From Candidatus Tenderia electrophaga (GTDB lineage: Bacteria; Pseudomonadota; Gammaproteobacteria; Tenderiales; Tenderiaceae), in contig CP013099.1 in assembly GCA_001447805.1 (NCBI GenBank), positions 682,001 through 746,000 on the forward strand: DNA of 64,000 nucleotides, given 5' to 3'. Made by a program: the position numbers and the translations under genes. Under the pieces are notes generated by a model. The model worked only from the letters and a program-made list of their open reading frames with translations. It was not told the origin of the DNA and searched no databases. Shown here piece by piece: positions 29,632-52,600 of this stretch; within the stretch, counting starts at the first letter, position 1; the number at the start of each line of letters is the position of its first letter.

Positions 29632-29907
29632 GGCGTAGTCTCCGTCGGTTGTGGCGCTATAAACAGGCAGCAAGTTCCATGCCGCAAAATCCCGCCTACA
29701 CCTTAAGACAACGGCAGCCGGAAATCCTTCCTTTAGTCCCCTTTCTCGCCACCGTCCGGAGTGAGATGATTTCGGGGGGCGGTATGGCTGGCGTGCGCGA
29801 CCGAGGCGCGCACAGGCATGCTTGACAGTCTGTCGAGCACGCTGACGAGGCCGGGCCGGGCGTCGCAGCAAGGAGGGGATGAGAAAAAGGGGATAGGGGA
29901 TGAGTGA
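29632..29907. other. Gene-poor stretch before the acyltransferase remnant
   Basis: About 276 bases between the hypothetical gene start (29631) and the first recognisable codons of the remnant. Only low-complexity, frame-inconsistent ORFs are present on either strand. It probably contains the promoter of the minus-strand hypothetical gene and eroded sequence left when the 5' part of the acyltransferase gene was lost. No inverted repeat or transposase footprint was seen. Confidence 0.4.
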
Positions 29908-30204
29908 TCGGCAACGAGCATTAATGCGCATATCGACAGCATCGAAGGGGTGGCCGACCTGATTGCGGAAATCGATCAGGATGAAAAGGGCGTGCCCATC
30001 CTGCTGAAACAGTATCTGAAGCTGGGCGGTCAGGTGTTGGAATTTAATGTGGACGACCCGTTTAGCAATGCTCTCGATGGCTTGATCATGGTCGATCTAA
30101 TGGCCACCGATCGCCGTACCCTGAGTAAGTACATGGGTCCGGCGGGGATGGAGCGTTTTTACAAGTACCGGCGCGACATGGCTGCGACAGCGTCGGCCGC
30201 TTAA
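29908..30204 (+). pseudogene. 3' remnant of a GNAT/PlsC-type lysophospholipid acyltransferase gene
   Basis: In one frame, after a stop at 29905, the reading is SATSINAHIDSIEGVADLIA, then GVPILLKQYLKLGGQVLEF, NVDDPFSNALDGLIMVDL and KYMGPAGMERFYKY, ending in a stop at 30204. These match the extreme C-terminus of the hemolysin-like GNAT/PlsC acyltransferase family, whose normal members are several hundred residues long, so about 85-95 residues survive. No catalytic HxxxxD region exists upstream. A GTG at 29950 could still start an 84-aa product, but I see no RBS. The 3' end overlaps the convergent DUF1631 gene by 4 bp. Confidence 0.6.
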
Positions 30205-32570: not shown

Positions 32571-32873
32571 GGGACTCTCTGTTAGATGTCTTCAACCGTC
32601 TTGTCGGTATGGGATGCTACGTTCGGGTTAACGACAGTCTGCGGTAGAGGCTTAAGCACAGAACCGCCGCTGACATGAGCGGGCCGGTGTTTTTGTGATG
32701 CCGATCAAGAAAGTGCAGCGAGACGGCAGCAGTGCCGCCGTGCTGTTGCGACGCTCGGGCGCCGACCGCAATCCGGCGTTGTGAGCACTGCTGCGATGGG
32801 CTATATACAAAGTGAGTGAATAGACGTGCGCTAAAAGGGACTTGGTCCAATTTTGCAGCAGGAGGATGAGAAA
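32571..32873. other. Divergent promoter region, DUF1631/host-attachment gene
   Basis: 303 bases with no credible gene. The plus-strand promoter TTGTGA-N17-TATATA lies at 32779-32807. The left part, the DUF1631 leader, has nothing I can name. Confidence 0.4.
32779..32807 (+). promoter_or_regulatory. Sigma-70-like promoter of the host-attachment family gene
   Basis: TTGTGA (32779-32784) and TATATA (32802-32807) are 17 bp apart. Each matches 4 of 6 consensus bases. The ATG of the next gene is at 32874, giving a ~60-nt leader with GGAGG 8 nt from the start. Confidence 0.45.
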
Positions 32874-33389
32874 ATGAGTGATTTTTGTGTGGTTGTGGCG
32901 GACAGCGCGCGGGCGCGTTTGTTTACCCTGGAAGAGTCCGGTGTCGCCGAGGGCGGCCCCAATCTGGTGGAGATTTCCAGCCTCGCGAATGCAGCGGCCG
33001 AGGCGCAGGACAACGAGATCTTTGCCGCAAAACGAGGTCGCAACACGGCCCCCGCCGAGGGCGGGATCCATGCCTATGACGACCATCGTGAGGACCATAA
33101 TCAGGAAAATGAGCGGCGTTTCGCCAAGGATGTTATCGCTGCAGCGGTGCAGACCCTGCAGCGTGAAAAGGCGGGGGTCTTGGTGCTGGCTGCCAATCCC
33201 CGCATGATGGGCTATCTGCGCGAGGCCCGCGACGCGGCGTCGCTCGATGTCAGAGTCAAGGAGGTGCACAAGGATTTGACCAAGCTGTCGGTGCATGAGG
33301 TGCATCGACACCTGACGGCGGACGGCTTGTTACCGCAGCGTGAGCCGGCCGAGAGCCAGCGTTACACGCCCTCAGGTCAGCCGCAATAA
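32874..33389 (+). CDS. Host attachment family protein (AtsE-like)
   Basis: 171-aa protein of the host attachment/baeRF family. It has the N-terminal VVVADSARARLFTLE, a disordered acidic-basic segment with many His (HAYDDHREDHNQENERRFAKD) and the C-terminal LVLAANPRMMGYLREARDA and VKEVHKDLTKLSVHEVHRHL blocks. Despite the family name, its members are widespread outside plant-associated bacteria and the fold resembles the archaeal release factor eRF1 domain 2. Start ATG 32874 has GGAGG 8 nt upstream. It is followed by an intrinsic terminator. Confidence 0.82.
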   Translation: MSDFCVVVADSARARLFTLEESGVAEGGPNLVEISSLANAAAEAQDNEIFAAKRGRNTAPAEGGIHAYDDHREDHNQENERRFAKDVIAAAVQTLQREKAGVLVLAANPRMMGYLREARDAASLDVRVKEVHKDLTKLSVHEVHRHLTADGLLPQREPAESQRYTPSGQPQ

Positions 33390-34481: not shown

Positions 34482-35894
34482 ATGGCAAAGAAATATGATG
34501 CGGGCGTTAAAGAGTACCGCGATGTGTACTGGACACCGGACTATGTCCCCCTGGATACCGACTTGTTGGCCTGTTTTAAGGTCACCCCGCAGGAAGGTGT
34601 GCCCAATGACGAGGCCGCCGCAGCCGTTGCCGCCGAATCATCCACCGGCACCTGGAGTACCGTATGGTCGGAATTGCTGACCGATATGGAGTTCTATAAA
34701 GGTCGCGCCTATCGTATTGAAGACGTGCCCGGCGACAAAGACGCCTTTTATGCCTTTATTGCCTATCCCATCGATCTGTTCGAAGAAGGTTCCATCGTCA
34801 ACGTGCTGACCTCCCTGGTCGGTAACGTATTCGGCTTCAAGGCGGTCAAGCATCTGCGCCTGGAAGACATCCGTTTCCCCATCGCCTTCGTCAAGACCTG
34901 CCTGGGTCCGCCCAGCGGCATCCAGGTGGAGCGCGATAAGCTTAACAAATACGGCCGTCCGCTGCTGGGCGCTACCATTAAACCGAAGCTGGGTCTGTCG
35001 GCCAAGAACTACGGCCGTGCCGTGTACGAGTGTCTGCGCGGCGGTCTGGACCTGACCAAGGACGATGAGAACGTCAACTCCCAGCCCTTCATGCGCTGGC
35101 AAAACCGTTTCGAATTCGTCGCCGAGGCGGTACAAAAGGCGCAGCAGGAAACCGGCGAGACCAAGGGGCATTACCTCAACGTCACCGCCAACACGCCGGA
35201 AGACATGTACGAGCGCGCTGAGTTCGCCAAGGAGCTGGGTCAGCCGGTCATCATGCATGACTTCCTCACCGGCGGCTTCACCGCCAACAGCGGTCTGGCC
35301 AAATGGTGCCGCAAGAGCGGCCTGTTGTTGCACATCCACCGTGCCATGCATGCGGTCATCGACCGTCATCCCAAGCACGGCATCCACTTCCGCGTGCTGG
35401 CCAAGTGCCTGCGACTGTCCGGTGGCGACCACCTGCACACCGGGACCGTCGTCGGCAAGCTGGAAGGCGACCGCGCCTCCACCATGGGTTACGTGGATCA
35501 GCTGCGTGAGTCCTTCGTCCCCGAAGACCGCAGCCGCGGCATCTTCTTCGACCAGGACTGGGGCTCCATGCCCGGCGTCTTCGCCGTCGCCTCCGGCGGT
35601 ATTCACGTCTGGCACATGCCCGCCCTGGTCACCATCTTCGGTGATGACTCCATCCTGCAGTTCGGTGGGGGTACGCAGGGCCACCCCTGGGGTAACGCCG
35701 CCGGCGCCGCCGCCAACCGTGTCGCCCTCGAGGCCTGTGTCAAGGCGCGTAATCAAGGCCGCGACCTGGAACGCGAATCGCGCGAAATCCTGGAAGGTGC
35801 CGCCCAGCACAGTCCCGAGCTGGCCATGGCCATGGAGACCTGGAAAGAGATCAAGTTCGAATTCGAAACCGTGGACAAACTCGATATCGGCTGA
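34482..35894 (+). CDS. cbbL: RuBisCO large subunit, form IA
   Basis: Fixes CO2 onto ribulose-1,5-bisphosphate. 470 aa, the usual form IA length. Active-site blocks are [11 protein letters not shown] (K167/K169), the carbamylated Lys in LTKDDEN (K193), HDFLTGGF and loop-6 KLEGDR (near 326). AGGAG lies 9 nt before the ATG. It leads a plus-strand operon with cbbS and the carboxysome genes, so it is the carboxysomal enzyme; the form IA clade is supported by this context. A putative CbbR operator lies upstream. Confidence 0.98.
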
Positions 35895-35924
35895 TCCCGG
35901 ACGCATTCAAATTAGGAGAACACC

Positions 35925-36275
35925 ATGCAAAACACACCCACTCAAATGGGCGATTACCGCACCCAAGAGACCCTGGAGACCTTCTCTTTCCTGCCGCCGC
36001 TGACGCAGGAAGAGGTCTATGAGCAGATCAACTATATGCTCGGCGAAGGCCTGACGCCCGCCATCGAGCACGAAGAGCCGGCCAAGGCCAATAATCATTA
36101 CTGGACCATGTGGAAGCTGCCCTTCTTCGGTGAGCGCGATCTGGGCAATGTGGTCGCCGAATTGGAGGCCTGTCACCGCAACTACCCGGATCATCACGTG
36201 CGCCTGATCGGTTACGACAACTATGCCCAAAGCCAGGGCGTTTGTTTCGTCGTCTATCGTGCCAAGAGCTGGTAA
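35925..36275 (+). CDS. cbbS: RuBisCO small subunit, form IA
   Basis: 116-aa small subunit of the L8S8 enzyme. It begins MQNTPTQMGDYRTQETLETFSFLPPL, includes the family's EQINYML and HYWTMWKLPFF segments and ends LIGYDNYAQSQGVCFVVYRA. The gene follows cbbL after 30 bp, with a good RBS. In alpha-carboxysomes the CsoS2 N-terminal repeats bind at the CbbL/CbbS interface. A GC-rich hairpin follows the stop. Confidence 0.97.
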   Translation: MQNTPTQMGDYRTQETLETFSFLPPLTQEEVYEQINYMLGEGLTPAIEHEEPAKANNHYWTMWKLPFFGERDLGNVVAELEACHRNYPDHHVRLIGYDNYAQSQGVCFVVYRAKSW

Positions 36276-36282
36276 GGCGGGG

Positions 36283-36305
36283 GCTGCCGCCATAGCGGCG
36301 GCAGC
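36283..36305 (+). promoter_or_regulatory. GC-rich hairpin between cbbS and csoS2
   Basis: GCTGCCGCC (36283-36291) and GGCGGCAGC (36297-36305) form a perfect 9-bp stem with a 5-nt loop, 8 nt after the cbbS stop. No U-tract follows, so it is not a normal terminator. It could protect the cbbLS mRNA 3' end or partly block read-through, which would make RuBisCO more abundant than shell proteins. Confidence 0.65.
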
Positions 36306-36337
36306 GACGAACGCGAATCCAACATGAGGTAACAGAA

Positions 36338-38236
36338 ATGGCCCAGCAAACATTGTCAGGCCGAGCCGCCTCTCTGGCGCGCCGGCAGGCCCAGGTGCAC
36401 GGCAAAGCCGCGTTACCGCCCAAGGGCAGCGGCGCCAAGGCGTCCGCGCCGCAGGCCGCTGCGAGTCGGCCGGCCGCCAGTGCCGGCGGTGACAGCGGTC
36501 GCGATGCCGCCCGCGCCCGCCGCCGCGCCATGGCCACCCACGGCAAGGCCGCGGCTCAATCCGGTGATCGCCAGCGCATGGTGGACACCATGCGTCATGC
36601 GCGTCAGCAGACCCAGGGGGATAAGGGTAAAGACTGCGGCTGTGGTTGCGGCGGCAGCGGCGAGTGCGACAAGCAGGCCGCGGCGGCATCCCCGGGTGAT
36701 TCCCAGCGTAGCCCCCAGAGTAAGTCGCAGAGTAAGCCGCTGAGCACCAGCGCTGCGGCGGCCAAACCGATGCCGCGGCGGCGTGAAGTCAAACCGGTAA
36801 CGGCCGCCAATGCCGGGCGCCTGAATGCCCGAATGCGGCGCCTGGCCCTGGCCCGCCACGGTAAGAACGGCGTCGACGCGACGGCCAAGGGGATGAACTC
36901 GGCGCAGCTGGTCAAGCAGCAAAATCCGGACATTTCCGGACGCGAGCTGGCCCGCAGCGTGCGTGCCCAGCGTGCCTGCAACGGCGCTCAGGGTAAGACC
37001 CGGTCGGCGCCGGTGGGCAGGCAGCGTCCGCCGCGTCCGGCGGATGACGTCACCGGTACCCACGTCGGTCACAGCACCAAGACCACCGGCAGTGAGACCG
37101 GCTTATGCCGCAGCATCACCGGCACCGAGTACTTCTCTGGCGCGGTGTTCAGCGAATTCTGCCAGGGCCAGCCGCCCCAGGCGCCGCGCAAGGTCGATGT
37201 CACCACCACGCTGCGCGGCGGCCAGGTGACCAGCGGCGGCCGGGTGGGGCGCGCGTCCCACGTTACCGGCGATGAGCGCGGCAGCTGTCGCAACGTCACC
37301 GGTAACGAATACGTAGGGCGCGAGCAGTATGACGATTTCTGTCCGTCGCGGCCCGAGCCGGGCAGTGCCAAGGTCAGCCATTCGCAGACCAGTCGCGGCC
37401 AGATCGTGTCCGGCTCCAAACCGGCCCGCTCGGAGCGGGTGACCGGTGACGAGGCGGGCACCTGCAAGGCGGTCACCGGCACGCCCTATGCCGGCGCCGA
37501 GCAGTATAAAGACTACTGTGCGCCGGACCAGGCCCGCTTGGCCGAGACCCGCAGCCAGCGGCGTCCCGCCATGGCCGGCCGCGACATCACCGGCCTGCAG
37601 CCCGGACTGGGCGGCCTCACCGGCGCCGAGAAGGGTGCCTGCGAACCGGTCAGCGGTACCGGCTATATCGGTGCCGCCGAGCGTCAGGCGGTATGTGGTA
37701 CGGCCCCGGCCCAGCCGGGCGAGGCCGATTTTCCGCAGTCCTTGGCCGCGGCCCCGTGGGGCGCCTTCAGCGTAGTCGCCCCCGGCCATGCCACGCAGGG
37801 CGCGGCCGAGCCGCATGGCGTTACCGGTACCCGCTATGAACAGGGGCGTATCAGCGGCACCTTCTCCCTGGCCGAGGGCAAGATCACCGGCACCGAGCAG
37901 TTCCGTTTCGGCGAACGCCAGGGCCGTGCCGCCGAGGCCGCTCAGGCTGTCCCGGCGGCGGCGTCGCAAAGTGCGCGCGGCATTACCGGCGAGGGCATCG
38001 ATACCGGTCTCAAGATCACCGGTGACGATTGGGACCGCGGTGATCGGGTCACCGGCACCGAAGGCATGTCGGCGGTGAAGCGGAATCCCACCCGGCGCGG
38101 CCCTGTCAGTGCCATGCCGGCGCATGCGCCCAAGCGTAACGAGGATCTGCCTCAAAGCGAACTGCTGGTCACCGGCGGCAGTGGTAATAGCGACAAAGGG
38201 GCGGCGGTGACTGTGTCCGGCGGTGCCCGGGGATAG
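36338..38236 (+). CDS. csoS2: Carboxysome scaffold protein CsoS2 (short form)
   Basis: 632-aa intrinsically disordered scaffold that links RuBisCO to the shell. Four N-terminal basic helical repeats of the type ARRQAQVHGK lie near 8-23, 58-72, 163-176 and 201-217. A Cys cluster is at 100-110. The middle region has three clear VTG-rich repeats with Cys pairs (238-275, 296-335, 354-394) and a fourth divergent one (416-453). The C-terminal domain (about 465-632) anchors to the shell and ends VTVSGGARG. CsoS2 of Halothiobacillus is longer, with six middle repeats, so this is a reduced form. Confidence 0.95.
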   Translation: MAQQTLSGRAASLARRQAQVHGKAALPPKGSGAKASAPQAAASRPAASAGGDSGRDAARARRRAMATHGKAAAQSGDRQRMVDTMRHARQQTQGDKGKDCGCGCGGSGECDKQAAAASPGDSQRSPQSKSQSKPLSTSAAAAKPMPRRREVKPVTAANAGRLNARMRRLALARHGKNGVDATAKGMNSAQLVKQQNPDISGRELARSVRAQRACNGAQGKTRSAPVGRQRPPRPADDVTGTHVGHSTKTTGSETGLCRSITGTEYFSGAVFSEFCQGQPPQAPRKVDVTTTLRGGQVTSGGRVGRASHVTGDERGSCRNVTGNEYVGREQYDDFCPSRPEPGSAKVSHSQTSRGQIVSGSKPARSERVTGDEAGTCKAVTGTPYAGAEQYKDYCAPDQARLAETRSQRRPAMAGRDITGLQPGLGGLTGAEKGACEPVSGTGYIGAAERQAVCGTAPAQPGEADFPQSLAAAPWGAFSVVAPGHATQGAAEPHGVTGTRYEQGRISGTFSLAEGKITGTEQFRFGERQGRAAEAAQAVPAAASQSARGITGEGIDTGLKITGDDWDRGDRVTGTEGMSAVKRNPTRRGPVSAMPAHAPKRNEDLPQSELLVTGGSGNSDKGAAVTVSGGARG

Positions 38237-38249
38237 TCGAACTGTCCCT

Positions 38250-38272
38250 GGCCGGCGCTCATGGCGCCGGCC
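38250..38272 (+). promoter_or_regulatory. GC-rich hairpin between csoS2 and csoSCA
   Basis: GGCCGGCGC (38250-38258) and GCGCCGGCC (38264-38272) make a perfect 9-bp stem with a 5-nt loop, 13 nt after the csoS2 stop. No U-tract follows. Its stem length, loop length and position match the hairpin after cbbS, suggesting a common role in operon mRNA processing or attenuation. Confidence 0.65.
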
Positions 38273-38309
38273 GCGACGGAGAGTGAGCCAGGTAACTTAG
38301 TGACAACGG

Positions 38310-39818
38310 ATGAAGACGATGTTCAATACACGAGCTAAAGTCAGACGCACCCTGCCCGGGCCGCCACCACGGCGTCCGCTGGCGGCCGCCTCTGGTGCCG
38401 GCGTCGGTATCGGGCACCATCCGTTGGTGCGCGGCGATGAAAACGCCCGCCTGTATCAATACGAACAGGCGGTCAAGCAGGCCTTCGCCGGCATCGAAGC
38501 GGTACTGCGTCAGCTCGCTGCCTGGCAACACGAGTCCGATTTCGTCGGCCGTGCCCAGGGTCACGCCCGCGCCACGCTGGGGTTTGAGCTGCCGGCCGAG
38601 CTGTTGCAAGACACCTGGATCCAAGCCTTGGATACCGGCCGCCTGTATGCCTGGTGCGTGTTTGAGACCTTTCGCCGCATGTCGGCGGAGTTCTTTGAAC
38701 AACGGCCGCTGGCAGTGGAGGGCGCGGCGAGCTTCCACGCGTTTTTGCAGCAGTGCGGCTTTCATACCTTGGATATATCGCCCTGCGCCGACGGCCGCCT
38801 GGCCCATGTCATCCGCTATGTGCTGCGCCTGCCGCACGAGCCGGTGCGGCGTAAGTCCTATGCCGGCGCCCTGTTCGATGTGGAGGACAGCCTCGAGAAG
38901 TGGGTGGAGACCGAGATGCTGCGCCAGCGCGAAGGCCGGCCCAACGCCGCCGACGCGCCGACACGTTATTTGAAGGTGGCGGTGTATCACCACAGTTCCA
39001 CGCGGCCCGATCAGGAAGGCTGCGCGGCCCACGGCAGCGACACCCGGCGTGCGGCCCAGGGGGCGCTGGAACGGTTGCAGGCGTTTCGCCAGGGCGTGGA
39101 AAACAGCTTTTGCTGCGGCGCCTCCATTGACCTGCTGCTGATCGGCGTCGACACCGACACGGATGCCATCCGCCTGCATCTGCCGGATGCGGACGGCGCC
39201 ATGGATGTGGATGACTACATCGATGCCAACGAGCTTTATCACGCCACCGCCAATGCCGCCATGGGCGACGCGGAGGCCACCGTGCAGGATCATCTGCGCC
39301 GTCACTGCAGCGCGGCGAATATGACGGTGCCGGCGCCCGGCATGTTGCGTCTGGCGGCGCGCCTGCTGTGCGCCAATCTGGCACAGATCGATTACGTGCG
39401 CCGCTATCACGGCGGCCGCTATGCCGACATCGGCCATCAGGAGCGTTTCATCGGCATGGGCATCGGCTTTGAAGAAGTGCAGTTGCGCAATCTGACGTAT
39501 TTCGCCTATCTGCGCACGGTGGAAGAAGGTGCCCAGGATCTGGACGTGGGGATCAAGATCTTCAACGGCTTGAATGTGCGTCGCGGTCTGCCCATACCGG
39601 TGGTGATCCGCTACGACTACCACGGCCAGGTGCCGGGTGCCCGGGCGCGGGCCGAGGCGCGTTGCCAGCAACTCGAAGCGGCCTTGCAGCAGCGCTATCA
39701 CGCGTACGTCGAGCAGGGTCTGTTGCATACCCTGTTGATGGTGCGCGACTGCCATGCCGGCGCGTCGGCCGAGGTGGTGGGGGGTTCCCTGCTGTGTAGT
39801 GATCAAGAGGTGCACTGA
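38310..39818 (+). CDS. csoSCA: Carboxysomal carbonic anhydrase CsoSCA
   Basis: 502-aa epsilon-type (beta-like) carbonic anhydrase (also csoS3) that turns bicarbonate into CO2 inside the carboxysome. Likely zinc ligands are C159 and C238 with H227 or H228; the catalytic Asp161-Arg163 pair lies in CADGRLAH. The ~45-residue basic, Pro-rich N-terminus (TRAKVRRTLPGPPPRRP) resembles the RuBisCO-binding tail of the Halothiobacillus enzyme. It overlaps csoS4A by one base (TGATG). Confidence 0.95.
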   Translation: MKTMFNTRAKVRRTLPGPPPRRPLAAASGAGVGIGHHPLVRGDENARLYQYEQAVKQAFAGIEAVLRQLAAWQHESDFVGRAQGHARATLGFELPAELLQDTWIQALDTGRLYAWCVFETFRRMSAEFFEQRPLAVEGAASFHAFLQQCGFHTLDISPCADGRLAHVIRYVLRLPHEPVRRKSYAGALFDVEDSLEKWVETEMLRQREGRPNAADAPTRYLKVAVYHHSSTRPDQEGCAAHGSDTRRAAQGALERLQAFRQGVENSFCCGASIDLLLIGVDTDTDAIRLHLPDADGAMDVDDYIDANELYHATANAAMGDAEATVQDHLRRHCSAANMTVPAPGMLRLAARLLCANLAQIDYVRRYHGGRYADIGHQERFIGMGIGFEEVQLRNLTYFAYLRTVEEGAQDLDVGIKIFNGLNVRRGLPIPVVIRYDYHGQVPGARARAEARCQQLEAALQQRYHAYVEQGLLHTLLMVRDCHAGASAEVVGGSLLCSDQEVH

Positions 39819-40072
39819 TGAAGATCTGCAAAGTTGAAAAGCCGCTGGTGGCCACCAACCGCATCCCCGGCCTGGAACACCGACACCTGCAAGTGGTGCT
39901 GGACGGCAGTTCGCGTCTGGTGGCGGTGGATGCGGTGGGTTGTACCCCCGGCGATTGGGTGATCTGCGTCGGCAGTTCGGCGGCGCGCGAGGCGGCCGGC
40001 AGCAAGGAATATCCCAGCGACCTCACCATCGTCGGCATCATCGACTACTGGAGCGAGGAGGCGCAGGGCTGA
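39818..40072 (+). CDS. csoS4A: Carboxysome vertex protein CsoS4A
   Basis: 84-aa bacterial microcompartment vertex (BMV) protein that forms pentamers to cap the icosahedral corners. It starts MKICKVEKPLVATNRIPGLE and shows VDAVGCTPGDWVICVGSSAA, the family pore-side block. It overlaps csoSCA by one base at its start and csoS4B by one base at its end, so the three genes are tightly coupled. Confidence 0.95.
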   Translation: MKICKVEKPLVATNRIPGLEHRHLQVVLDGSSRLVAVDAVGCTPGDWVICVGSSAAREAAGSKEYPSDLTIVGIIDYWSEEAQG

Positions 40073-40326
40073 TGGAGATCATGCAGGTGGTCGGACCACT
40101 GGTATGCACTCGCCGTCACCCTGGTCTGTATCAGCACAGCCTGCGGGTGCTGCGCGATGCCAAGGGCAGGATACAGGTGGCCCTGGATACCAGCGGCTGC
40201 CGGCCGGGCAACTGGGTATTCGTGGTGAGCGGTTCGGCGGCGCGCTATGCCTGCGGGGATGCGCGTGTACTCACCGATCTCACCGTGGGCGGGATTATCG
40301 ATTTTTGGGACAGGACTGAACATTAA
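40072..40326 (+). CDS. csoS4B: Carboxysome vertex protein CsoS4B
   Basis: 84-aa BMV pentamer paralogue of CsoS4A: MEIMQVVGPLVCTRRHPGL, LDTSGCRPGNWVFVVSGSAA and LTVGGIIDFWDR. The ATG at 40072 overlaps the csoS4A stop; longer upstream starts would lie inside csoS4A. It probably caps a minor share of the shell vertices. Its stop is followed by a 50-bp spacer before csoS1. Confidence 0.95.
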   Translation: MEIMQVVGPLVCTRRHPGLYQHSLRVLRDAKGRIQVALDTSGCRPGNWVFVVSGSAARYACGDARVLTDLTVGGIIDFWDRTEH

Positions 40327-40376
40327 CCAAGTAAGCGTATTTTTAACGAGTCACAACTCAAGATGGAGAGAAGACA

Positions 40377-40685
40377 ATGAGTGAACACAACTACGGTATT
40401 GCATTAGGCATGATCGAGACCCGCGGTCTGGTGCCCGCCATCGAGGCGGCGGACGCCATGACCAAGGCGGCGGAAGTGCGCCTCATCGGTCGCGAATATG
40501 TCGGCGGCGGTTATGTCACCGTGCTGGTGCGCGGTGAGACCGGCGCAGTCAACGCCGCCGTGCGCGCCGGCGCCGACGCCTGCGAGCGGGTCGGTGACGG
40601 TCTGGTGGCGGCCCACATCATCGCCCGTCCCCACAAAGAGGTCGAGCCGGTGCTGGGTAGCAACCTGGCACTCGACGCCAAGTAA
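40377..40685 (+). CDS. csoS1C: Carboxysome shell hexamer protein CsoS1 (copy 1)
   Basis: 102-aa BMC-domain protein forming the hexagonal shell facets. It starts MSEHNYGIALGMIETRGLVP and includes AEVRLIGREYVGGGYVTVLVRG and VAAHIIARPHKEVEPVLG. The C-terminus differs from copy 2, ending LGSNLALDAK. Its ORF begins 50 bp after csoS4B. It is almost identical at DNA level to the next gene over the central ~270 bp. Naming as C or A is by position in the Halothiobacillus order and is arbitrary. Confidence 0.96.
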   Translation: MSEHNYGIALGMIETRGLVPAIEAADAMTKAAEVRLIGREYVGGGYVTVLVRGETGAVNAAVRAGADACERVGDGLVAAHIIARPHKEVEPVLGSNLALDAK

Positions 40686-40718
40686 TTCTTTTCGCCATAG
40701 ATATAGGAGATAAAGACC

Positions 40719-41015
40719 ATGGCAAATGATACATACGGTATTGCATTAGGCATGATCGAAACCCGCGGGCTGGTGCCCGCCATCGAGGCGGCGGACGCCA
40801 TGACCAAGGCGGCGGAAGTGCGCCTCATCGGTCGCGAATATGTCGGCGGCGGTTACGTCACCGTGCTGGTGCGCGGTGAGACCGGCGCGGTCAATGCCGC
40901 CGTGCGCGCCGGCGCCGACGCCTGCGAACGGGTCGGTGACGGACTGGTGGCGGCCCACATCATCGCGCGTCCGCATCGCGAAGTGGAGCCGGTGCTGGGC
41001 GGCCCGAAAGAGTAA
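40719..41015 (+). CDS. csoS1A: Carboxysome shell hexamer protein CsoS1 (copy 2)
   Basis: 98-aa BMC-domain shell protein starting MANDTYGIALGMIETRGLVP. It has the same pore loop and core as copy 1; the visible changes are at the N-terminus, Lys-to-Arg near HREVEPVLG, and the short C-terminal tail GGPKE. It follows copy 1 after 33 bp. A third CsoS1 paralogue, as in Halothiobacillus, is not present in the window. Confidence 0.96.
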   Translation: MANDTYGIALGMIETRGLVPAIEAADAMTKAAEVRLIGREYVGGGYVTVLVRGETGAVNAAVRAGADACERVGDGLVAAHIIARPHREVEPVLGGPKE

Positions 41016-41108: not shown

Positions 41109-41567
41109 ATGACACAGGATCCTGCCATTCTGGGGTTTCTGGGACGTGCCCTCAGTTTCGAGCTTTCCGCGGTGCAGCAATATCTGTCGCTGGCGCGACT
41201 GTTGCAGCTGCGCGGCATGACCGAAGTGGGGCAACGTCTGCGACAGGAGGCGCAGGATGAGATGGAGCACGCCGATCGCATTATCGGTCGCATGTTGGCT
41301 CTGGGCGTGGCGCCCAATGCCAGTCAGTTGCGACCGCCGCGTCTCGACGGTTGCGTGACCGATGTGCTGCAGCATGCGGCACGCCTCGAGCACGACATCA
41401 TCAGCCTGTATACGCAGGCCGTAGAGTATTGCGCGCGGCGTCAGGATCATGAAAACCGACTCTTCTTCGACACCTTGTTGCAGGAGGAACGGCAACACGC
41501 CGGTGCCATCGACCAGTGGCAACAATCGTTGACGGCGGGTGAGTGGGGCCGGGACACGAAAACTTAA
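41109..41567 (+). CDS. Bacterioferritin/ferritin-like protein of the carboxysome operon
   Basis: 152-aa ferritin-like four-helix protein. Metal-binding residues fit a di-iron site: Glu in FELSAVQQYLSLARL, the EMEHAD pair, Glu in RLEHDIISLY and the EERQHA motif. It is related to the bacterioferritin-like gene that occurs in many cso operons. Its role there is not established. It lies 93 bp after csoS1 copy 2 and slightly before acRAF. Confidence 0.85.
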   Translation: MTQDPAILGFLGRALSFELSAVQQYLSLARLLQLRGMTEVGQRLRQEAQDEMEHADRIIGRMLALGVAPNASQLRPPRLDGCVTDVLQHAARLEHDIISLYTQAVEYCARRQDHENRLFFDTLLQEERQHAGAIDQWQQSLTAGEWGRDTKT

Positions 41568-41595
41568 TTATCAGCAAGCGAGGAGTATGACCGTG

Positions 41596-41856
41596 ATGAA
41601 CGATTGGAAACTACGCAAACGTCCGGCGCGTCTGGAGCGTCGCATCGAGTTCGACGACTATGAGCAGACCCGCGAATTTCTCGAACGGGCCGCCGAGCTG
41701 GCCGAACGCGAAGGCTATTACCCGGACCTGAGTTTCGGGCGCACCCATGTCAACCTCACACTGCAGCCGCAGAACGATGCCGATGAGATCGGCGAGCCGT
41801 TGATGCAATACGCCCGCGAAGTGGATGCCTTACTGCCGGAGCGCCAGGTGAACTGA
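41596..41856 (+). CDS. acRAF: RuBisCO assembly factor acRAF (PCD-like)
   Basis: 86-aa protein with the pterin-4a-carbinolamine dehydratase-like fold. It starts MNDWKLRKRPARLERRIEF and has AELAEREGYYPDLSFGRTHVNLTL, the degenerate active-site region typical of acRAF, a form IA RuBisCO assembly chaperone. I use the ATG at 41596, with AGGAG 10 nt upstream; GTG at 41593 fits the spacing slightly better. It follows the ferritin-like gene after a 28-bp spacer. Confidence 0.85.
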   Translation: MNDWKLRKRPARLERRIEFDDYEQTREFLERAAELAEREGYYPDLSFGRTHVNLTLQPQNDADEIGEPLMQYAREVDALLPERQVN

Positions 41857-41900
41857 GATCGGCGCATACCCCCGCTAAATCGCAGCGCAGGAGAACAGCA

Positions 41901-42089
41901 ATGACGAACAAAGCAAATGATCAGAAACCCAGTGGTGCCGCCGGTGAGGCGGCGCCAGCGACAAAAGACCGCGGCACTGCTGCACAGCGTGCACCAGCAA
42001 AGAAAGCGGCGCCGCGCGCGCAGGCAGCAGCGAGTTCTGAAAATAAAGACAACGACCCGTTCGCATCACGCCGGGTATGGCCGGACTGA
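41901..42089 (+). CDS. Small disordered protein, orphan McdB-like candidate
   Basis: 62-aa protein rich in Ala, Lys, Pro and Gln with no predicted fold over residues 1-48, ending in the conserved-looking C-terminus DPFASRRVWPD with a single Trp. The ATG at 41901 is preceded by AGGAG about 9 nt upstream. It follows acRAF in the cso operon. Alpha-carboxysome positioning protein McdB is small, disordered and has a conserved Trp near its end, so this is a candidate. It is shorter than typical McdB, and no McdA ParA-type ATPase is in the window. The homology claim is tentative. Confidence 0.55.
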   Translation: MTNKANDQKPSGAAGEAAPATKDRGTAAQRAPAKKAAPRAQAAASSENKDNDPFASRRVWPD

Positions 42090-42223: not shown

Positions 42224-43264
42224 ATGGGAAGTTTGACCAATTTGTTGTTGCCGGCGGTGCTGTTTTTTGCCTTGGGGTTTGTCGCCCGGGTGATCAAGTC
42301 CGATCTGCGTTTTCCTCCCGATCTTGCCAAGGTGTTATCGATTTATCTGCTCATGGCCATCGGCCTGCACGGCGGTTATGAGCTGGCTAAGGCCGATATA
42401 ATGACGGCGGTGAATTCCATCGTCTGGGCGCTGGTCCTGGGCTTCACGCTACCCATTATCGGTTATATCGCGCTGGTGCTGACGCGCAAGGTGAATCCTA
42501 TGGACGCGGCGGCGATCTCGGCCCATTACGGCTCGGTGAGCGCCGGCACATTTCTGACCGCCATCGCCTATCTGGATAGCGCCGGGGTCTCCTACGAGAC
42601 CTATCCTCTGATTATGCTGGCGGTGATGGAGTCGCCCGCCATCATCGTCGGTCTGTTGCTGGCGGCCAAGGCGCGCATGTCCCTGGCGGCGCGCGACGAC
42701 GTCGTGGCAGCGGGCGACGGTACGACGGCAATGAGCGCCGATGACGGCAACGAAAACGACGCCCATAGCATGGCCGCGCTGCTGCGTGACGCCTTTACCA
42801 ACGGCAGCGTGGTGGTGTTGATCGGCTCCATGATCATCGGTGCCATCTCCACCCCCTCAGGCATGGAAAAACTGTTCCCCTTCATCGACGACATCTTTAT
42901 GGGGGTGCTGTGTCTGTTTCTGTTCGATATGGGCATGGTGGCGGCGCGCCGCATCGGCGATTTCCGTAAAGTGGGTCTGGTGTTGGCGGCCTTCGGCGTC
43001 CTGATGCCCTTGCTCGGCGGCGTGGTGGGCGCCTACGTCGGCTTTGCCATTCTCGACTTCAGCGTCGGCGGCGCCACCCTGGTGGCGGTGCTCGGCGCCA
43101 GCGCCTCCTACATCGCCGTGCCGCCGGCCATGCGCCTGGCGGTGCCCGAGGCCAACCCATCCTTTTATCTAACCTTGTCCTTGGGGATCACCTTTCCGTT
43201 TAATGTGCTGGTGGGAATTCCCCTGTATCACAGCCTGGTGCAGAGCATGGCAATGTCAGGATGA
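42224..43264 (+). CDS. sbtA: Sodium-dependent bicarbonate transporter SbtA
   Basis: 346-aa inner-membrane bicarbonate transporter of the SbtA (DUF897) family with about ten transmembrane helices in two inverted halves. ISAHYGSVSAGTFLTA and LGASASYIAVPPAMRLAVPEA are the hallmark substrate/sodium-site blocks. A charged loop around residues 155-180 separates the halves, where SbtB would dock. GGAG lies 8 nt before the ATG. It supplies cytosolic bicarbonate to the carboxysome and sits just upstream of an sbtB-like gene. Confidence 0.93.
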   Translation: MGSLTNLLLPAVLFFALGFVARVIKSDLRFPPDLAKVLSIYLLMAIGLHGGYELAKADIMTAVNSIVWALVLGFTLPIIGYIALVLTRKVNPMDAAAISAHYGSVSAGTFLTAIAYLDSAGVSYETYPLIMLAVMESPAIIVGLLLAAKARMSLAARDDVVAAGDGTTAMSADDGNENDAHSMAALLRDAFTNGSVVVLIGSMIIGAISTPSGMEKLFPFIDDIFMGVLCLFLFDMGMVAARRIGDFRKVGLVLAAFGVLMPLLGGVVGAYVGFAILDFSVGGATLVAVLGASASYIAVPPAMRLAVPEANPSFYLTLSLGITFPFNVLVGIPLYHSLVQSMAMSG

Positions 43265-43303: not shown

Positions 43304-43624
43304 ATGGTAGCGTTATATCCTGAAAAGCTTCTGACTATCATCTCTATTGATTCCATGGAAGAGTCGCTGGTGGCTTCGTTTAAAAAGTACGGCATAAGTG
43401 GTTATACCGTCATACGTGCCCGCGGCGAGGGAGCATCCGGAATACAGGCGGACATGACCGGCTTCGATGCCAACATCATGGTCAAGGTGGTGCTGCCGTT
43501 AGAGCGTTTGCAGCCCTTGCTCGAAAGCCTGGAACGCAAGATACGCAAAGGCCACCACTTGACCGTGTTCGTGGCCGATGTGCAGGTCATCACGCCGGAT
43601 AAATTCACACGATCTCTGCGCTAG
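43304..43624 (+). CDS. sbtB: SbtB-like PII family regulator
   Basis: 106-aa PII-like protein. The N-terminal LLTIISIDSMEESLVASF and the T-loop region IRARGEGASGIQADMTGFDANIMVKVVLP fit the SbtB family, which gates SbtA in response to adenyl nucleotides. It ends DKFTRSLR and lacks the C-terminal CGPxGC R-loop seen in cyanobacterial SbtB, so redox/apyrase-type control may be missing. It starts 39 bp after sbtA. Confidence 0.85.
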   Translation: MVALYPEKLLTIISIDSMEESLVASFKKYGISGYTVIRARGEGASGIQADMTGFDANIMVKVVLPLERLQPLLESLERKIRKGHHLTVFVADVQVITPDKFTRSLR

Positions 43625-44722: not shown

Positions 44723-45337
44723 GTGATTAAGCTTCGCACGTATGTGTTTATTGATTCCCTGCAACCGCAGTTGGCGGCCTATATGGGGACAGTGGCGCAA
44801 GGCTTTCTGCCGGTGCCGGGGGATGCCTGTCTGTGGGTGGAAGTGGCGCCGGGGATGGCCATCCACCGCCTCAGCGATGTAGCCCTCAAGGCCACCCGCG
44901 TGCATCTCGGGGCGCAAGTGGTGGAACGCGCCTTCGGCTCGATGGTGTTTCATCACCGTGATCAAAGCGATGTCTCCGAAGCGGGCAGGGCGCTGCTGTA
45001 TGCCCTGCATACCCGCGAGGAGGCACGCCAGAAGTGCCGCATCGCCTGGAGCGAGACGGTGCGCTCCATTACCCCGGATCACGCCGTGTTGATCAATCGT
45101 CAGGACCGCAAGGGCTCCATGATCCTGCCGGGTCAGAGCATGTTCATTCTGGAGACCGAACCCGCCGGCTATATCGTCTATGCCGCCAATGAGGCGGAAA
45201 AGGCGGCCAGTATTACCTTGGTGGATGCGCGTGCCGTGGGGGCCTACGGTCGTCTTACCCTGGCCGGGCGTGAGGCGGATATCGATGCCGCGGCGCAGGC
45301 GGCGATTCACGCGGTGCAGGCGCTGTCAGGCGTATAA
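44723..45337 (+). CDS. csoS1D: Tandem-BMC carboxysome shell protein CsoS1D
   Basis: 204-aa trimeric double BMC-domain protein that may form a gated pore for large metabolites such as Ru[40 protein letters not shown] and [15 protein letters not shown] match cyanobacterial CsoS1D very closely. The long disordered N-terminal extension of the Prochlorococcus protein is absent. It lies 25 bp after cbbR, separate from the other shell genes, and ends the island. Confidence 0.93.
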
Positions 45338-46859: not shown

Positions 46860-46909
46860 CGCGATGCGCCTGAACCGTCGGGCGTTGACGATTGCTTTGG
46901 AGATCGACC

Positions 46910-48184
46910 ATGAACAACTTTTCAGTCAGCTGCGTGGCTGTGGTGCTGATGCTGGTGCTGGCAGGCCGCGCGCTAGCCGCGCCAGCCCTTGAAACCGATA
47001 CCTTGTCACTGCCCGAGGCGCTGCGCCAGGGCCTGGCACAAAGTCCGGGTCTGGCCGCCAGCCGTGCCATGGCCCTGGCGGCGCGGGCGCGGGTACCCCA
47101 GGCCGGCAGCTTGCCCGACCCGCGCTTGAACATCGGCCTGGCCAACCTGCCCAGCGACAGTTTTTCGCTTTCCCAAGACCCCATGAGCCAGATCCAGGTG
47201 GGCATCAGCCAGGCCTTGCCCTTTCCCGGTAAGCGCGGTCTGGAAGAGGAGGTGGCCGAATACCACGCCGAGGCAGCCAGACAGGGCAGTGACGAGGCCC
47301 GCCTGGCCTTGCTGCGCGACATCAAGCAGGCCTGGTGGGGCTTGTTCTATTTTGATCGCGCCCTGGAGACCAATGCCAATAACCGCGGCCTGTTCGAGCA
47401 GCAGTTGGAGACGGCCCAGACCCGCTACACCGTCGGCCGGGGCGAGCAGCATGACATCCTGTTGGCGCAGCTGGAATTGGCCCGCCTGGACGATGAACGC
47501 TTGCAGCTGCAACAAGCGCGCGGCGAAACCGAGATCCTGCTCAATCGTCTGCTCAACCGTCCCCCGGAGACGGCTATCCACCTGCCTGAGCAGAGCGCCG
47601 CCGCCTTGCCCCTGCTATCAGATATGGCGCAACTGCAGGCCGTTGCCCTGAACCAACGTCCGGATCTTTTCGCCGCCCAGGCCCGGCTGGAGGCAGCCCG
47701 CGCCCAACGTGCCTTGAGTGCGCGGGACCAGTATCCCGATTTTACCCTGGGCGCCATTTATGGTCGGCGTGACGGTCGTCAGGACCTGGCCTCCATCCAG
47801 TTTTCCATGAGTCTGCCCTTGTATGCAGGGCGCAAGCAGTCCAAGGCCGAGGACCAGCGCCAGGCCGAGTTGATTGCCGCCCAGGAACAGCTGCGCGACC
47901 TGCACAGCCGCGTGAGTGCGGCCGTGGCGTCGGCGGTGCTGCGCTACCGGCGCGCCCGGGATCAGGTCACCCTGTTCGAGCAGGCCATCCTGCCGCAGGC
48001 GCGCCAGACGGTGGAGGCCATGCTGGCGGGCTATCAGGTCAACAAGACGGCCTTTATCAATCTGGTGCAGGCCCAGGCTGACTTGTACGACTACGAAACC
48101 CGCTATTGGCGGGTCTACAGCGCCGCCCATCAGGCCCTGGCCGAGCTGGCGGCGGCCATCGGCGAGGAGAGGATGTATGAATAA
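46910..48184 (+). CDS. cusC: TolC-family outer-membrane channel of the Cu/Ag efflux system
   Basis: 424-aa outer-membrane efflux protein with a Sec signal (MLVLAGRALAAP). The two TolC coiled-coil repeats are visible: LPEALRQGLAQSPGLAASRA and LPFPGKRGLEEEV in the first, and QLQAVALNQRPDLFAAQARLEAAR in the second. GGAG lies 8 nt before ATG 46910. It is the outer-membrane part of the tripartite pump with the next two genes; the adaptor ATG overlaps it by 8 bp. Confidence 0.9.
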   Translation: MNNFSVSCVAVVLMLVLAGRALAAPALETDTLSLPEALRQGLAQSPGLAASRAMALAARARVPQAGSLPDPRLNIGLANLPSDSFSLSQDPMSQIQVGISQALPFPGKRGLEEEVAEYHAEAARQGSDEARLALLRDIKQAWWGLFYFDRALETNANNRGLFEQQLETAQTRYTVGRGEQHDILLAQLELARLDDERLQLQQARGETEILLNRLLNRPPETAIHLPEQSAAALPLLSDMAQLQAVALNQRPDLFAAQARLEAARAQRALSARDQYPDFTLGAIYGRRDGRQDLASIQFSMSLPLYAGRKQSKAEDQRQAELIAAQEQLRDLHSRVSAAVASAVLRYRRARDQVTLFEQAILPQARQTVEAMLAGYQVNKTAFINLVQAQADLYDYETRYWRVYSAAHQALAELAAAIGEERMYE

Positions 48185-49526
48185 GACAGTGATCATGGTG
48201 GCGCTGGCGGCGCTGGGACTGGGGGCGGCCGGGGGCTACTTGTTGAATGAGAGACTCGGCGCGCCCGCCAGTGCCAAGCACGAAGCGACCTCGGGCCAGC
48301 GTGAGGTGTTGTTCTGGCGTAACCCGATGAACCCTGAAATTACTTCGCCGGTATTTACTCAGGACGAGATGGGGATGGACTACATCCCGGTGTATGCCGG
48401 CGGCGACGACGCTGCGGACACGCCGGCGGGCACGGTGAGCATCGACCCGACCGTGGTGCAGAACATCGGCGTGCGCACCGCCGTGGTGGAGCAGCGCCCA
48501 TTGGCGCGCCGTATTCATGCGCTGGGCCACGTGGATTTCAACGAAGAGCGCCTGGCACGGCTGCACCCCAAGACCTCGGGCTGGATCGAACAACTACGTA
48601 TCGAAGAGACCGGCACCGCCGTTAAGCAAGACACCATCCTGCTAAGCATCTATGCGCCCGACCTGGTGGCCGCTCAGCAAGAGTATCTGGTGGCCTTGAG
48701 CAACTGGGAGGCGCTGCGCAACAGCGGCGCGACCGCAGTGAAGAATAGCGCCAAGCGGGTGTTGCAGAGCGCCCGCCAGCGTCTGGAGCTGTTCGATGTG
48801 CCGGCCCACCAGATCCACGAATTGGAGCAGTCGCGGGAATTGATGCGCAATCTGCATATCCATTCGCCTTTCGCCGGTCGTGTCATGAACATCGGCGCAC
48901 GCGAGGGGCAGTACGTTACGCCCCAAGACGAGCTCTACCTTATCGCCGACCTGAGCCGCATCTGGGTCTCGGTGGATGTCTACGAAGACGATCTGCCCTG
49001 GATCGAGCTGGGCGACAGGGCTGAACTGGAGGTGCGCGCCGCGCCGGGTGAGGTGTACGAAGGCGAGGTGAGCTTCATTCATCCGGTGCAGGATCGCCAA
49101 ACCCGCACCGTGCGCGTGCGTCTGGCGGTGGACAATCCCGATCTCACCCTCAAGCCCGGCATGTTCGCCAATGTGGTACTGCACGCCGACCCACGCCCCG
49201 ACGCGGTGGTAGTGCCCAGCGAGGCCATCGTCCGCTCCGGTCAACGCGAGCAGGTCTTCGTCGCCCGGGGTGAAGGCAAGTTCATCCCCCGCGACGTGCA
49301 ATTGGGCATCAGCGCCGGCGGTGAGACCCAGATCCTGTCCGGCGTGGAACCGGGCGAGCGGGTGGTGGTCTCCAGCCAGTTCCTGATCGACTCTGAATCC
49401 AAGCTCAAAGAGGCGACGGCCAAGATGATGGCGCCGGAGCCCGTGGATCACGGCATGTCCATGGAAGGGATGGAAATGGACGACATGAGTATGGATGACA
49501 TGGATATGTCGGAGATGGGGGAGTAG
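48177..49526 (+). CDS. cusB: Periplasmic adaptor CusB with heavy-metal-binding domain and Met-rich tail
   Basis: 449-aa membrane-fusion protein. After a signal anchor (VALAALGLGAAGGYLLNE) comes a heavy-metal-binding domain (FWRNPMNPEI...EMGMDYIPVY, about 41-68), then barrel-sandwich and hairpin domains (DFNEERLARLHPKTSG, LAAQQEYLVAL). The last 23 residues contain 9 Met alternating with Asp/Glu, a likely Cu(I)/Ag(I) site. The HMBD and Met tail indicate copper/silver specificity. It overlaps cusC by 8 bp, with AGGAG before its start, and is followed by a 167-bp spacer before cusA. Confidence 0.92.
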   Translation: MNKTVIMVALAALGLGAAGGYLLNERLGAPASAKHEATSGQREVLFWRNPMNPEITSPVFTQDEMGMDYIPVYAGGDDAADTPAGTVSIDPTVVQNIGVRTAVVEQRPLARRIHALGHVDFNEERLARLHPKTSGWIEQLRIEETGTAVKQDTILLSIYAPDLVAAQQEYLVALSNWEALRNSGATAVKNSAKRVLQSARQRLELFDVPAHQIHELEQSRELMRNLHIHSPFAGRVMNIGAREGQYVTPQDELYLIADLSRIWVSVDVYEDDLPWIELGDRAELEVRAAPGEVYEGEVSFIHPVQDRQTRTVRVRLAVDNPDLTLKPGMFANVVLHADPRPDAVVVPSEAIVRSGQREQVFVARGEGKFIPRDVQLGISAGGETQILSGVEPGERVVVSSQFLIDSESKLKEATAKMMAPEPVDHGMSMEGMEMDDMSMDDMDMSEMGE

Positions 49527-49608
49527 ACCATGGCTAGGAATATAGATGTAGGTGTGACGACAGGGGCTGAGGTGACATCCTTTGCTGGGTGTCCCATCGC
49601 GGGCGGTG

Positions 49609-49653
49609 AAATCCCCCCTCGCCCCCCTTTGCAAAGGGGGGATGGGGGGATTT
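49609..49653. repeat. Palindromic C6/G6 intergenic repeat between cusB and cusA
   Basis: A 45-nt near-perfect palindrome: AAATCCCCCC (49609-49618), a second CCCCCC (49622-49627), TTTGCAAA (49628-49635), GGGGGG (49636-49641) and GGGGGGATTT (49644-49653). Similar C-run/G-run palindromes are scattered in many proteobacterial genomes as an intergenic repeat. It is in the transcribed spacer of the pump operon and would fold into a very stable hairpin. Confidence 0.75.
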
Positions 49654-49693
49654 TTCAGCGTCGCAGCGATGATCCGTGCACGGGTGAGCGGTC

Positions 49694-52600
49694 ATGATAG
49701 AAAAAATCATCTCCGCCTCCCTGCGCGATAAATTCCTCGTCCTCACCGCCACCCTGCTGTTGGTGGCGGCCGGTGTCTGGGCGCTGAAGAATACCCCGCT
49801 GGACGCCATTCCCGATCTCTCAGATGTGCAGGTGATCGTCTTCACCGAGTACCCCGGCCAGGCGCCGCAGGTGGTGGAGGATCAGGTCACCTATCCCCTC
49901 ACTACGGCCATGCTGGCGGTGCCCCGGGCCAAGACGGTGCGCGGCTACTCCTTTTTCGGTTTCTCTTTCGTCTATGTCATCTTCGAGGACGGCACCGATA
50001 TGTACTGGGCCCGCTCGCGGGTGCTGGAGTACCTCAACTATGCCGACAGCCGTCTGCCCGACGGTGTTTCGCCCTCGCTCGGGCCGGACGCCACCGGGGT
50101 GGGTTGGGTCTATGAATACGCCCTGGTGGATAAAACCGGCGAGCACGATCTGGCCCAGCTGCGCTCCATCCAGGATTGGTATCTGCGCTATCCCTTGCAG
50201 ACCGTGGCCGGTGTGGCCGAGGTCGCGTCGGTAGGCGGCTACGTTAAACAGTATCAGGTGGAGGTCGATCCCAATGCCCTGCTGGCCTATAACATCCCCC
50301 TGTCCAAGGTGACGCGGGCCATCCAGCGCTCCAACAACGACGTGGGCGGCAAGCTGGTGGAAATGGCCGAGACCGAGTACATGGTGCGCGGCCTGGGCTA
50401 TATCCAGTCCATCGACGATCTCAAATCCGTTCCGGTGGCGGTGGGCGACGACGGTGTGCCCATTCGGCTGCAGGATGTGGCCCACATTCACCTGGGGCCG
50501 GAGCTGCGCCGCGGTCTGGCCGAACTCAACGGTGAGGGCGAGGTGGCCGGTGGCGTGGTGGTGATGCGCTTTGGTGAGAACGCCCTGGCCACTATCGAGC
50601 GGGTCAAGGCCAAGCTGGAATCCCTCAAAAGCGGTCTGCCCGCGGGGGTGGAGATCGTGCCGGTCTATGACCGCAGCGATTTGATCAAGCGGGCGGTGGA
50701 CAATCTCAAGCACAAGCTCATGGAAGAGAGCATTGTCGTTGCTCTGATCGCCATCCTGTTTTTGTTGCACGCGCGCTCGGCGCTGGTGGCCATCGTCTCG
50801 TTGCCCATTGGTATCCTGGCGGCGTTCGTGATTATGAAATGGCAGGGCATCAACGCCAACATCATGTCTCTGGGCGGTATCGCCATCGCCATCGGCGCCA
50901 TGGTGGACGGCGCTATCGTCATGATCGAAAACGCCCACAAGCATCTGGAAAATGCCGCTACCCGCATCGGCCGTGAACTGAGCAATTCCGAGCGCTGGCA
51001 GGCGGTCGGTGATGCGGCGCGGGAGGTCGGCCCGGCGCTGTTCTTCTCGCTGCTGATTATCACCGTCTCCTTCCTGCCGGTGTTTACCCTGCAGGCGCAG
51101 GAGGGGCGTCTGTTCAGTCCGCTGGCCTTCACCAAGACCTACGCCATGGCCGCCGCGGCGGTGTTGGCCATCACCCTGGTGCCGGTGCTGATGGGGTATT
51201 TCATTCGCGGCCGGATTTTGCCCGAGGCCAAGAATCCCATTAATCGCTTTTTGCATTGGCTGCATGCGCCGCTGTTGCGGGTTGCCATCCGCTGGCGCGG
51301 GTTGACGTTGTTGCTGGCCGTGGGCCTGCTGGCGGCCACCCTCTATCCCTTGAGCAAACTGGGCAGTGAGTTCATGCCGCCGTTGGACGAGGGGGATATC
51401 CTCTATATGCCCACCACCTATCCCGGTGTTTCCATCACCAAGGCCAAGGAGCTGCTGCAGCAGACCGACAAGATTCTGCGCAGCTTCGCCGAGGTGGAGC
51501 AGGTGTTCGGCAAGGTGGGACGGGCCGATAGCGCCACCGACCCGGCGCCGCTCTCCATGCTGGAGACCACAGTGAAGTTGAAGCCGAAATCGGAATGGCC
51601 CGATCCCGGCAAGAGCACCCGCGAGCTGATGGACGAGATGGACGCGGCCATCCAGTTCCCCGGCCTGGCCAATGCCTGGACCATGCCCATCAAGACCCGC
51701 ATCGACATGCTCTCCACCGGCATCAAGACGCCGATTGGGATCAAAGTCAGTGGCCCCGACCTGGCGGTATTGCAACAGGTGGCCGGCGCTATCGAACAGA
51801 CCCTGAAGCAGCTGCCCGACACCCTGTCCGCCTTCGGCGACAAGGCCGCCGGCGGCTACTACCTGGACTTCGATATCAACCGCGCGGAGGCGGCGCGCTA
51901 CGGCCTCACCGTCGGCGATGTGCAGGACATTATTCAGAGCGCCATCGGCGGCATGAATGTCACCCAGACCGTGGAAGGACTGGAGCGCTATCCGGTCAAT
52001 GTGCGTTATCCGCGTGAAATGCGCGACAACTTAGATCAGCTCAAGCGGGTGTTGGTGCCCACGCCCACTGGGGCGCAGATCCCCTTGTCGCTGGTGGCGG
52101 AGTTGAAACTGCGCCGCGGCGCGCCGTCTATCAAGTCGGAAAACTCACGTCCCAATGCCTGGGTCTATGTGGATATCACTAGTTCCGACATCGGTGGTTA
52201 TGTGCAACGGGCCAAGCAAGTGGTGGCGGAGCAAGTGGAGATTCCCCCCGGCTACACCCTGGTCTGGTCGGGGCAGTACGAATATATGGAACGCGCCGCC
52301 CAGCGGTTGAAGATTGTGGTGCCGTTGACGCTGTTGATCATTCTGCTATTGCTCTACTTCAACTTCCGCAATCTTGCAGCACCGCTGGTGGTGATGCTGT
52401 CGATTCCGTTCGGTCTCATCGGCGGTTTCTGGCTGGTCTATTGGCTTGGTTTCAATCTCTCGGTCGCCGTGGCCGTGGGCTTTATCGCCCTGGCCGGGGT
52501 GGCGGCGGAGATCGGAGTATTGGTGCTCACCTTCATCGATCAGGCGGTCGCCAAAATGCGTCGTGAACACGAAACACTGTCTGCGCAGCAGATCATGCAG

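Follow-up and report, generated by a model that had tools for sequence, protein, structure and literature searches.

Why does a carboxysome operon carry a gene for a small McdB-like protein with no mcdA beside it, and what might such a protein do there? The locus that raises this question lies in the genome of Candidatus Tenderia electrophaga, in a stretch of 64,000 nucleotides (contig CP013099.1, positions 682,001 to 746,000 of the forward strand) that is referred to here as the window and whose numbering is used throughout. Carboxysome and carboxysomal Rubisco genes of this organism were reported to be relatively more expressed at 470 mV (PMC5371394). The original prediction had proposed an orphan McdB-like protein that acts independently of McdA, or else a different carboxysome client.

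The cso core (34482..41015, forward strand) consists, in this order, of cbbL, cbbS, csoS2, csoSCA, csoS4A, csoS4B and two csoS1 genes; the first two were identified by inspecting the translation and the others by families. It is followed on the same strand by a bacterioferritin-like gene (41109..41567, PF00210), acRAF, encoding a Rubisco assembly factor (41587..41856, Pterin_4a, PF01329, 2.4e-9), the gene under study, the bicarbonate transporter gene sbtA (42224..43264, PF05982, 1.5e-111) and a PII-like gene in the SbtB position (43304..43624, PF00543), and then by a LysR gene and a CcmP/CsoS1D-like BMC gene. The gaps from acRAF to the gene under study and from there to sbtA are 44 nt and 134 nt, respectively. 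The cso cluster ends, behind the LysR gene, with a BMC-domain protein (44723-45337) that is nearest to CcmP, with a score below the curated cut-off, and is probably CsoS1D. We also noted that the csoS4B frame is 40072-40320, the listed open reading frame at 40104-40319 being an out-of-frame decoy. After the carboxysome cluster, the region 46892-52858 holds outer-membrane efflux and CusB-like membrane-fusion genes and then a 1054-aa open reading frame. A DUF1631 gene (30201-32570) is adjoined by two frames (29200-29931 and 32652-33311, minus strand) that code for 243 and 219 aa and match no Pfam family.

The gene itself (P0001; 41901..42089, forward strand) is intact from ATG to TGA and encodes 62 amino acids (MTNKAN...DPFASRRVWPD). 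An AGGAG ribosome-binding site (41889..41893, forward strand) stands 7 nt before the ATG. The protein contains 17 alanines among its 62 residues, 6 lysines, 6 prolines, 5 arginines and a single tryptophan, and its net charge is +4 overall and 0 over the first 20 residues. Single-sequence AlphaFold2 gave a pLDDT of 63 and no secondary structure. For alpha-McdBs, an R(V/I)WPD consensus and lengths of 51-169 aa have been described (PMC11321042); at 62 aa, disordered, of low hydrophobicity and with a biased composition, the window protein agrees with this picture. The window holds a single R(V/I)WPD followed by a stop, where chance would give 0.01; the whole 3.76-Mb genome (two contigs) holds two, both at the end of an McdB gene, and the reversed control none. 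Frame, AGGAG, composition and family assignments of the neighbours all agree with the predicted disordered protein ending in RRVWPD, with its own ribosome-binding site between acRAF and sbtA, and its likeness to McdB holds in that the alpha-McdB C-terminal motif is present. A chance reading frame was ruled out by the low expectation for tail matches in the window (0.01) together with synteny. A CsoS2-like or encapsulation peptide was also considered and rejected, as no such repeat was seen in the sequence by eye.

The Pfam and NCBIfam profile libraries returned no family for the window protein or for its type 1 partner (see below), so that membership in McdB rests on the motif, the context and a profile built here; when the genome was searched with the window protein, the type 1 McdB was recovered only at an E-value of 9.2. 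In G006, a relative of the same genus, a 23,165-base contig encodes a closely similar McdB, with its last 12 residues and its ribosome-binding site preserved. The two proteins differ at 13 of 62 residues, and dN/dS is 0.13/0.21 (~0.6); selective constraint outside the tail is weak.

A class to which such a protein could belong has been defined: alpha-McdB type 2 is the name for a second mcdB that stands in the cso operon apart from any mcdA, in genomes with mcdAB elsewhere, and whose product lacks the charged N-terminus; the same review calls its role undetermined (PMC8262871). Because motif, context, partner and N-terminus were all tested, we regard it as almost certain that the window protein is an alpha-McdB type 2.

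The partner was found in the same genome. The second R(V/I)WPD-stop site lies ~0.7 Mb from the window gene and ends a 54-aa McdB (MSERAQTGTKLANSVRQAK...FAARRVWPD). The start of this McdB overlaps the stop of the gene at G000:C1:1423154-1423783, which encodes a ParA of 210 aa bearing the motif KGGTGKTT. This pair of mcdA and type 1 mcdB (G000:C1:1423154-1423947) was located by the genome scan and the ParA/McdA profiles; the ParA scored 201 bits against NCBIfam ParA_partition NF041546 (cut-off 180) and 393 bits against the McdA profile, which includes this ParA. In the 54-aa McdB, single-sequence AlphaFold2 predicted helices at residues 3-22 and 37-51. The predicted lack of McdA is hence correct for the operon, where acRAF is the neighbour, and wrong for the genome, in which the search for a ParA partner turned up a McdA directly before its dedicated McdB. 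Carboxysome positioning in the window organism would be done by this distant pair.

To place the arrangement in a wider context, we surveyed 73 cso genomes, that is, carriers of PF08936 (csoSCA), made up of 8 of the 11 genomes of the order and 68 of 369 genomes drawn evenly from the class, two overlapping sets; many of the 73 are metagenome assemblies. Searches with the R(V/I)WPD pattern and the McdA model were run over 76 genomes and then combined, with eight rows whose last codon is TGG left out of the combined survey table. In 37 of the 73 genomes, mcdAB follows close behind the cso core and there is no orphan, while in 26 an orphan R(V/I)WPD frame stands 2.1-2.7 kb after the csoSCA domain. 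Five further genomes have mcdAB elsewhere only, and five show neither arrangement by the R(V/I)WPD pattern. No genome in the combined survey of cso genomes has the orphan and mcdAB together at this position. Two genomes in which the type 2 gene and csoSCA are on different contigs (G006 and G085) were added from sequence reading, from which the loci L145 and L147 (start not usable) were dropped, giving 28 type 2 genomes including that of the window. A McdA with an adjoining McdB is encoded elsewhere in 22 of these 28 (the McdB ending in R(V/I)WPD in 15 and in RCWPD or RTWPD in 7), and in some of them (G004, G007, G201 and G294) the type 2 gene and mcdAB share a cluster, with mcdAB following 4 to 11 kb further downstream. 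Three of the cso genomes scored with the McdA profile are unmatched by the R(V/I)WPD-stop search: G046 has an in-place McdAB ending in LRWPD, and no McdA was found with the McdA profile in G162 and G239. The survey provides a sequence rule by which the McdB types can be told apart.

Neighbouring genes are well conserved. acRAF is directly upstream in 26 of the 28 type 2 loci (one exception being a contig end, the other lacking an acRAF match), and sbtA is directly downstream in 19. The same position is occupied by mcdA-mcdB in all 20 in-operon loci checked (of 37), in 19 of them behind acRAF. Several side observations were made. Of the 28 type 2 loci, 20 have a relative of the BMC protein at 44723-45337 downstream of the type 2 gene. 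In two mcdAB loci (L217 and L218, in G137 and G345), mcdAB is followed by sbtA and a PII-like gene, the same succession as behind the type 2 gene in the 19 loci mentioned. One genome (G136) has two csoSCA loci, on C30 and C56, each with its own mcdAB. The survey also contained several motif sites without a McdA within reach. In a separate scan of named genomes with nearby acRAF sequences, all 28 named loci had an RxWPD frame ending 201-363 nt after acRAF, a proportion that is biased, as the scan was built from type 2 neighbours, and the set overlaps with the surveyed genomes. Thiocapsa marina 5811 and T. roseopersicina DSM 217, which are in culture, are among the carriers, and each of these two genomes has a McdA with R-V-W-P-D-stop ~0.3 kb behind it. 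A ParA over the family cut-off is present in 20 of the 28 named genomes; the other 8 were not counted as McdA-less, their completeness not being known.

The tail of the protein is its most recognizable part. FxSxRVWPD, which the window protein has, was found in 18 of 28 type 2 proteins compared to 1 of 62 type 1 proteins, a contrast inflated by relatedness. RVWPD is present in all 28, but the search pattern itself had demanded R(V/I)WPD. For Halothiobacillus neapolitanus McdB, the last 10 residues were reported to be sufficient for carboxysome association (PMC11321042). By analogy, the predicted carboxysome-binding tail of the window protein, DPFASRRVWPD (42054..42086, forward strand), very probably binds the carboxysome.

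Type 2 genes were also found in genomes without McdA. The McdA profile, built from nine McdAs, gave best matches of 198-402 bits in 9 McdA-bearing genomes, some of which are also in the profile. No McdA was found in the type 2 genomes G131, G245, G210, G212 and G305, which are 97-99% complete; their best matches reached 49-89 bits, and the NCBIfam model agrees. G006, an 88% assembly, likewise yielded no McdA. As G131 and G245 belong to one genus, the five genomes represent four lineages. G210 and G212 have same-genus relatives with McdA (G081 and G085), so that McdA was probably lost in these two while the type 2 gene stayed. When the McdA-less genomes were searched with the relaxed pattern RxWPD-stop, the matches examined, which leave out the true-stop site G131:C5:155475, were all short chance frames. 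Retention of type 2 in five McdA-less genomes favours a job outside McdA-driven positioning. The proposal of McdA independence stands in a restricted form, namely that the McdA-binding N-terminus is missing (see below) and that the protein persists in five genomes without McdA.

A different history would be that mcdAB once stood at this place, that mcdA was lost after mcdAB had moved, and that the leftover mcdB has been drifting since, with only its tail still recognizable. The fact that type 2 occupies the exact place of mcdA-mcdB and the weak constraint outside the tail would both fit such a relic. Against it, the gene is kept in 28 genomes with its type-favoured FxSxRVWPD tail, and also in the four McdA-less lineages. 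A tree of 61 ParA rows bears on the same question: the McdAs of type 2 genomes need three changes relative to the in-operon McdAs. Of the 22, 20 group together with weak support (89/84), and those of G089 and G255 fall elsewhere. The three changes imply that the arrangement with mcdAB elsewhere would have arisen at least three times or been gained and lost, and an operon type 2 gene is present in each group. We therefore consider a relic unlikely.

We then asked whether the window protein still has the means to engage McdA. In H. neapolitanus McdB, the first 20 residues, above all Lys7, bind McdA and are sufficient for this binding (PMC12204374). A profile of the first 28 residues of the 37 in-operon McdBs, tested on proteins outside the training set, matched 25 of 25 held-out McdA-linked McdBs at 9.0-42.8 bits, whereas all 28 type 2 proteins stayed at or below 8.2 bits and shuffled controls at or below 6.3; the margin is narrow, with the lowest type 1 protein at 9.0 bits and the highest type 2 protein (G360) at 8.2 bits. 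The window protein scored 2.0 bits, a shuffle-like value. The net charge of the first 20 residues ranges from -2 to +6 in type 2 (mean 1.4) and from -1 to +8 in type 1 (mean 3.0), and as these ranges overlap, the N-terminal motif separates the two types better than charge. Overall, type 1 McdBs are about as basic as type 2 and similar in composition, with a difference in leucine (0.8% in type 2 compared to 3.5% in type 1). Judged by sequence and prediction only, the window protein appears to lack the N-terminal helix by which McdBs bind McdA, single-sequence AlphaFold2 models of disordered McdBs being weak evidence, and it is likely to be unable to bind McdA. It could nevertheless still be a McdA partner that binds the distant McdA via other residues, beside the McdA-linked McdB. 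McdA is indeed present in 22 of the 28 type 2 genomes, and H. neapolitanus McdB was reported to use non-basic N-terminal residues as well (PMC12204374). Since the N-terminal profile match and helix are absent, leucine is nearly missing from type 2 proteins and these persist without McdA, we regard such a partnership as improbable.

Taken together, we consider it rather probable that the window protein is a type 2 adaptor that docks on the carboxysome, is unable to engage McdA and acts as a shell coat. Its C-terminal FASRRVWPD would dock on the carboxysome, as suggested by the work on H. neapolitanus McdB, and without a McdA-binding N-terminal helix it would neither recruit nor activate McdA. 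The type 2 protein may instead form a soluble, disordered coat on the shell by filling the sites for McdB. Where mcdAB is also present, as in the window organism, it would dilute the McdA-binding McdB on each carboxysome and thereby tune the pull of the latter; where McdA is absent, it would stop carboxysomes from sticking together. This role as a coat or buffer, taken by itself, is put forward tentatively and somewhat short of an even chance, and it is preferred because type 2 survives without McdA.

Other functions were weighed. The tail could bind the carboxysome while the rest of the protein, basic and disordered, forms joint condensates with Rubisco or CsoS2 during assembly. The conserved order with acRAF and shell genes, the composition and the reported correlation of McdB condensate formation with carboxysome association (PMC11321042) are compatible with such a condensate or cargo factor; yet type 1 McdBs share the composition and act from the carboxysome surface, and no CsoS2-like repeat was seen in the sequence, which makes this function unlikely. 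Less probable still is a DNA tether, in which the Lys-rich disordered part would hold carboxysomes directly on the nucleoid and replace McdA. The persistence of type 2 without McdA would suit a tether, as would the KKAAPKKAAP repeats of the G009 protein (L091 3588-3872); such Lys-Ala-Pro repeats of some type 2 proteins presumably recall histone-H1-like tails. The window protein, however, has a net charge of only +4, and type 1 proteins are about as basic. A tether was dismissed as first choice on account of this charge and because H. neapolitanus McdB did not bind DNA.

At the level of the family, type 2 might be a separate class of carboxysome-surface clients, distinguished by the FxSxRVWPD tail and by a job of its own. 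Its persistence in the operon, in three or more separate cases with mcdAB elsewhere and also where McdA is gone, would then indicate that the shell has a McdA-independent coat protein controlling clustering, a generalization that we offer as speculative. If true, a natural McdA-independent anti-clustering factor would be useful for engineering carboxysomes into other cells. The two Thiocapsa strains named above provide cultured carriers, and the McdA-less type 2 genomes listed here are where a McdA-free role is testable.

The idea of a McdA-independent McdB role is already in print, as orphan McdBs in cyanobacteria and proteobacteria were taken to suggest it (PMC8406218). The function of a second McdB is also treated as open in a further review that places the extra copy away from the cso locus (PMC12918739), a placement that differs from PMC8262871 and from the window locus. 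Our literature search found no experiment on any type 2 protein. Compared to known systems, the window protein shares the C-terminal tryptophan and disorder with beta-McdB of cyanobacteria (PMC11321042), which is longer (132-394 aa, PMC11321042) and has a coiled coil (PMC8262871). With alpha-McdB type 1 of H. neapolitanus it shares the R(V/I)WPD C-terminus, disorder and small size; type 1, however, follows mcdA and has an N-terminal helix of the KLxxSVRxxK type, neither of which applies to the window protein. From alpha-McdB type 2, as described by MacCready, Vecchiarelli and colleagues, it shows no essential difference: it is an orphan in the cso operon with mcdAB elsewhere, ends in RVWPD, is disordered and appears to lack the McdA-binding N-terminus. 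It is not new, but a good example of a known yet unexplained family.
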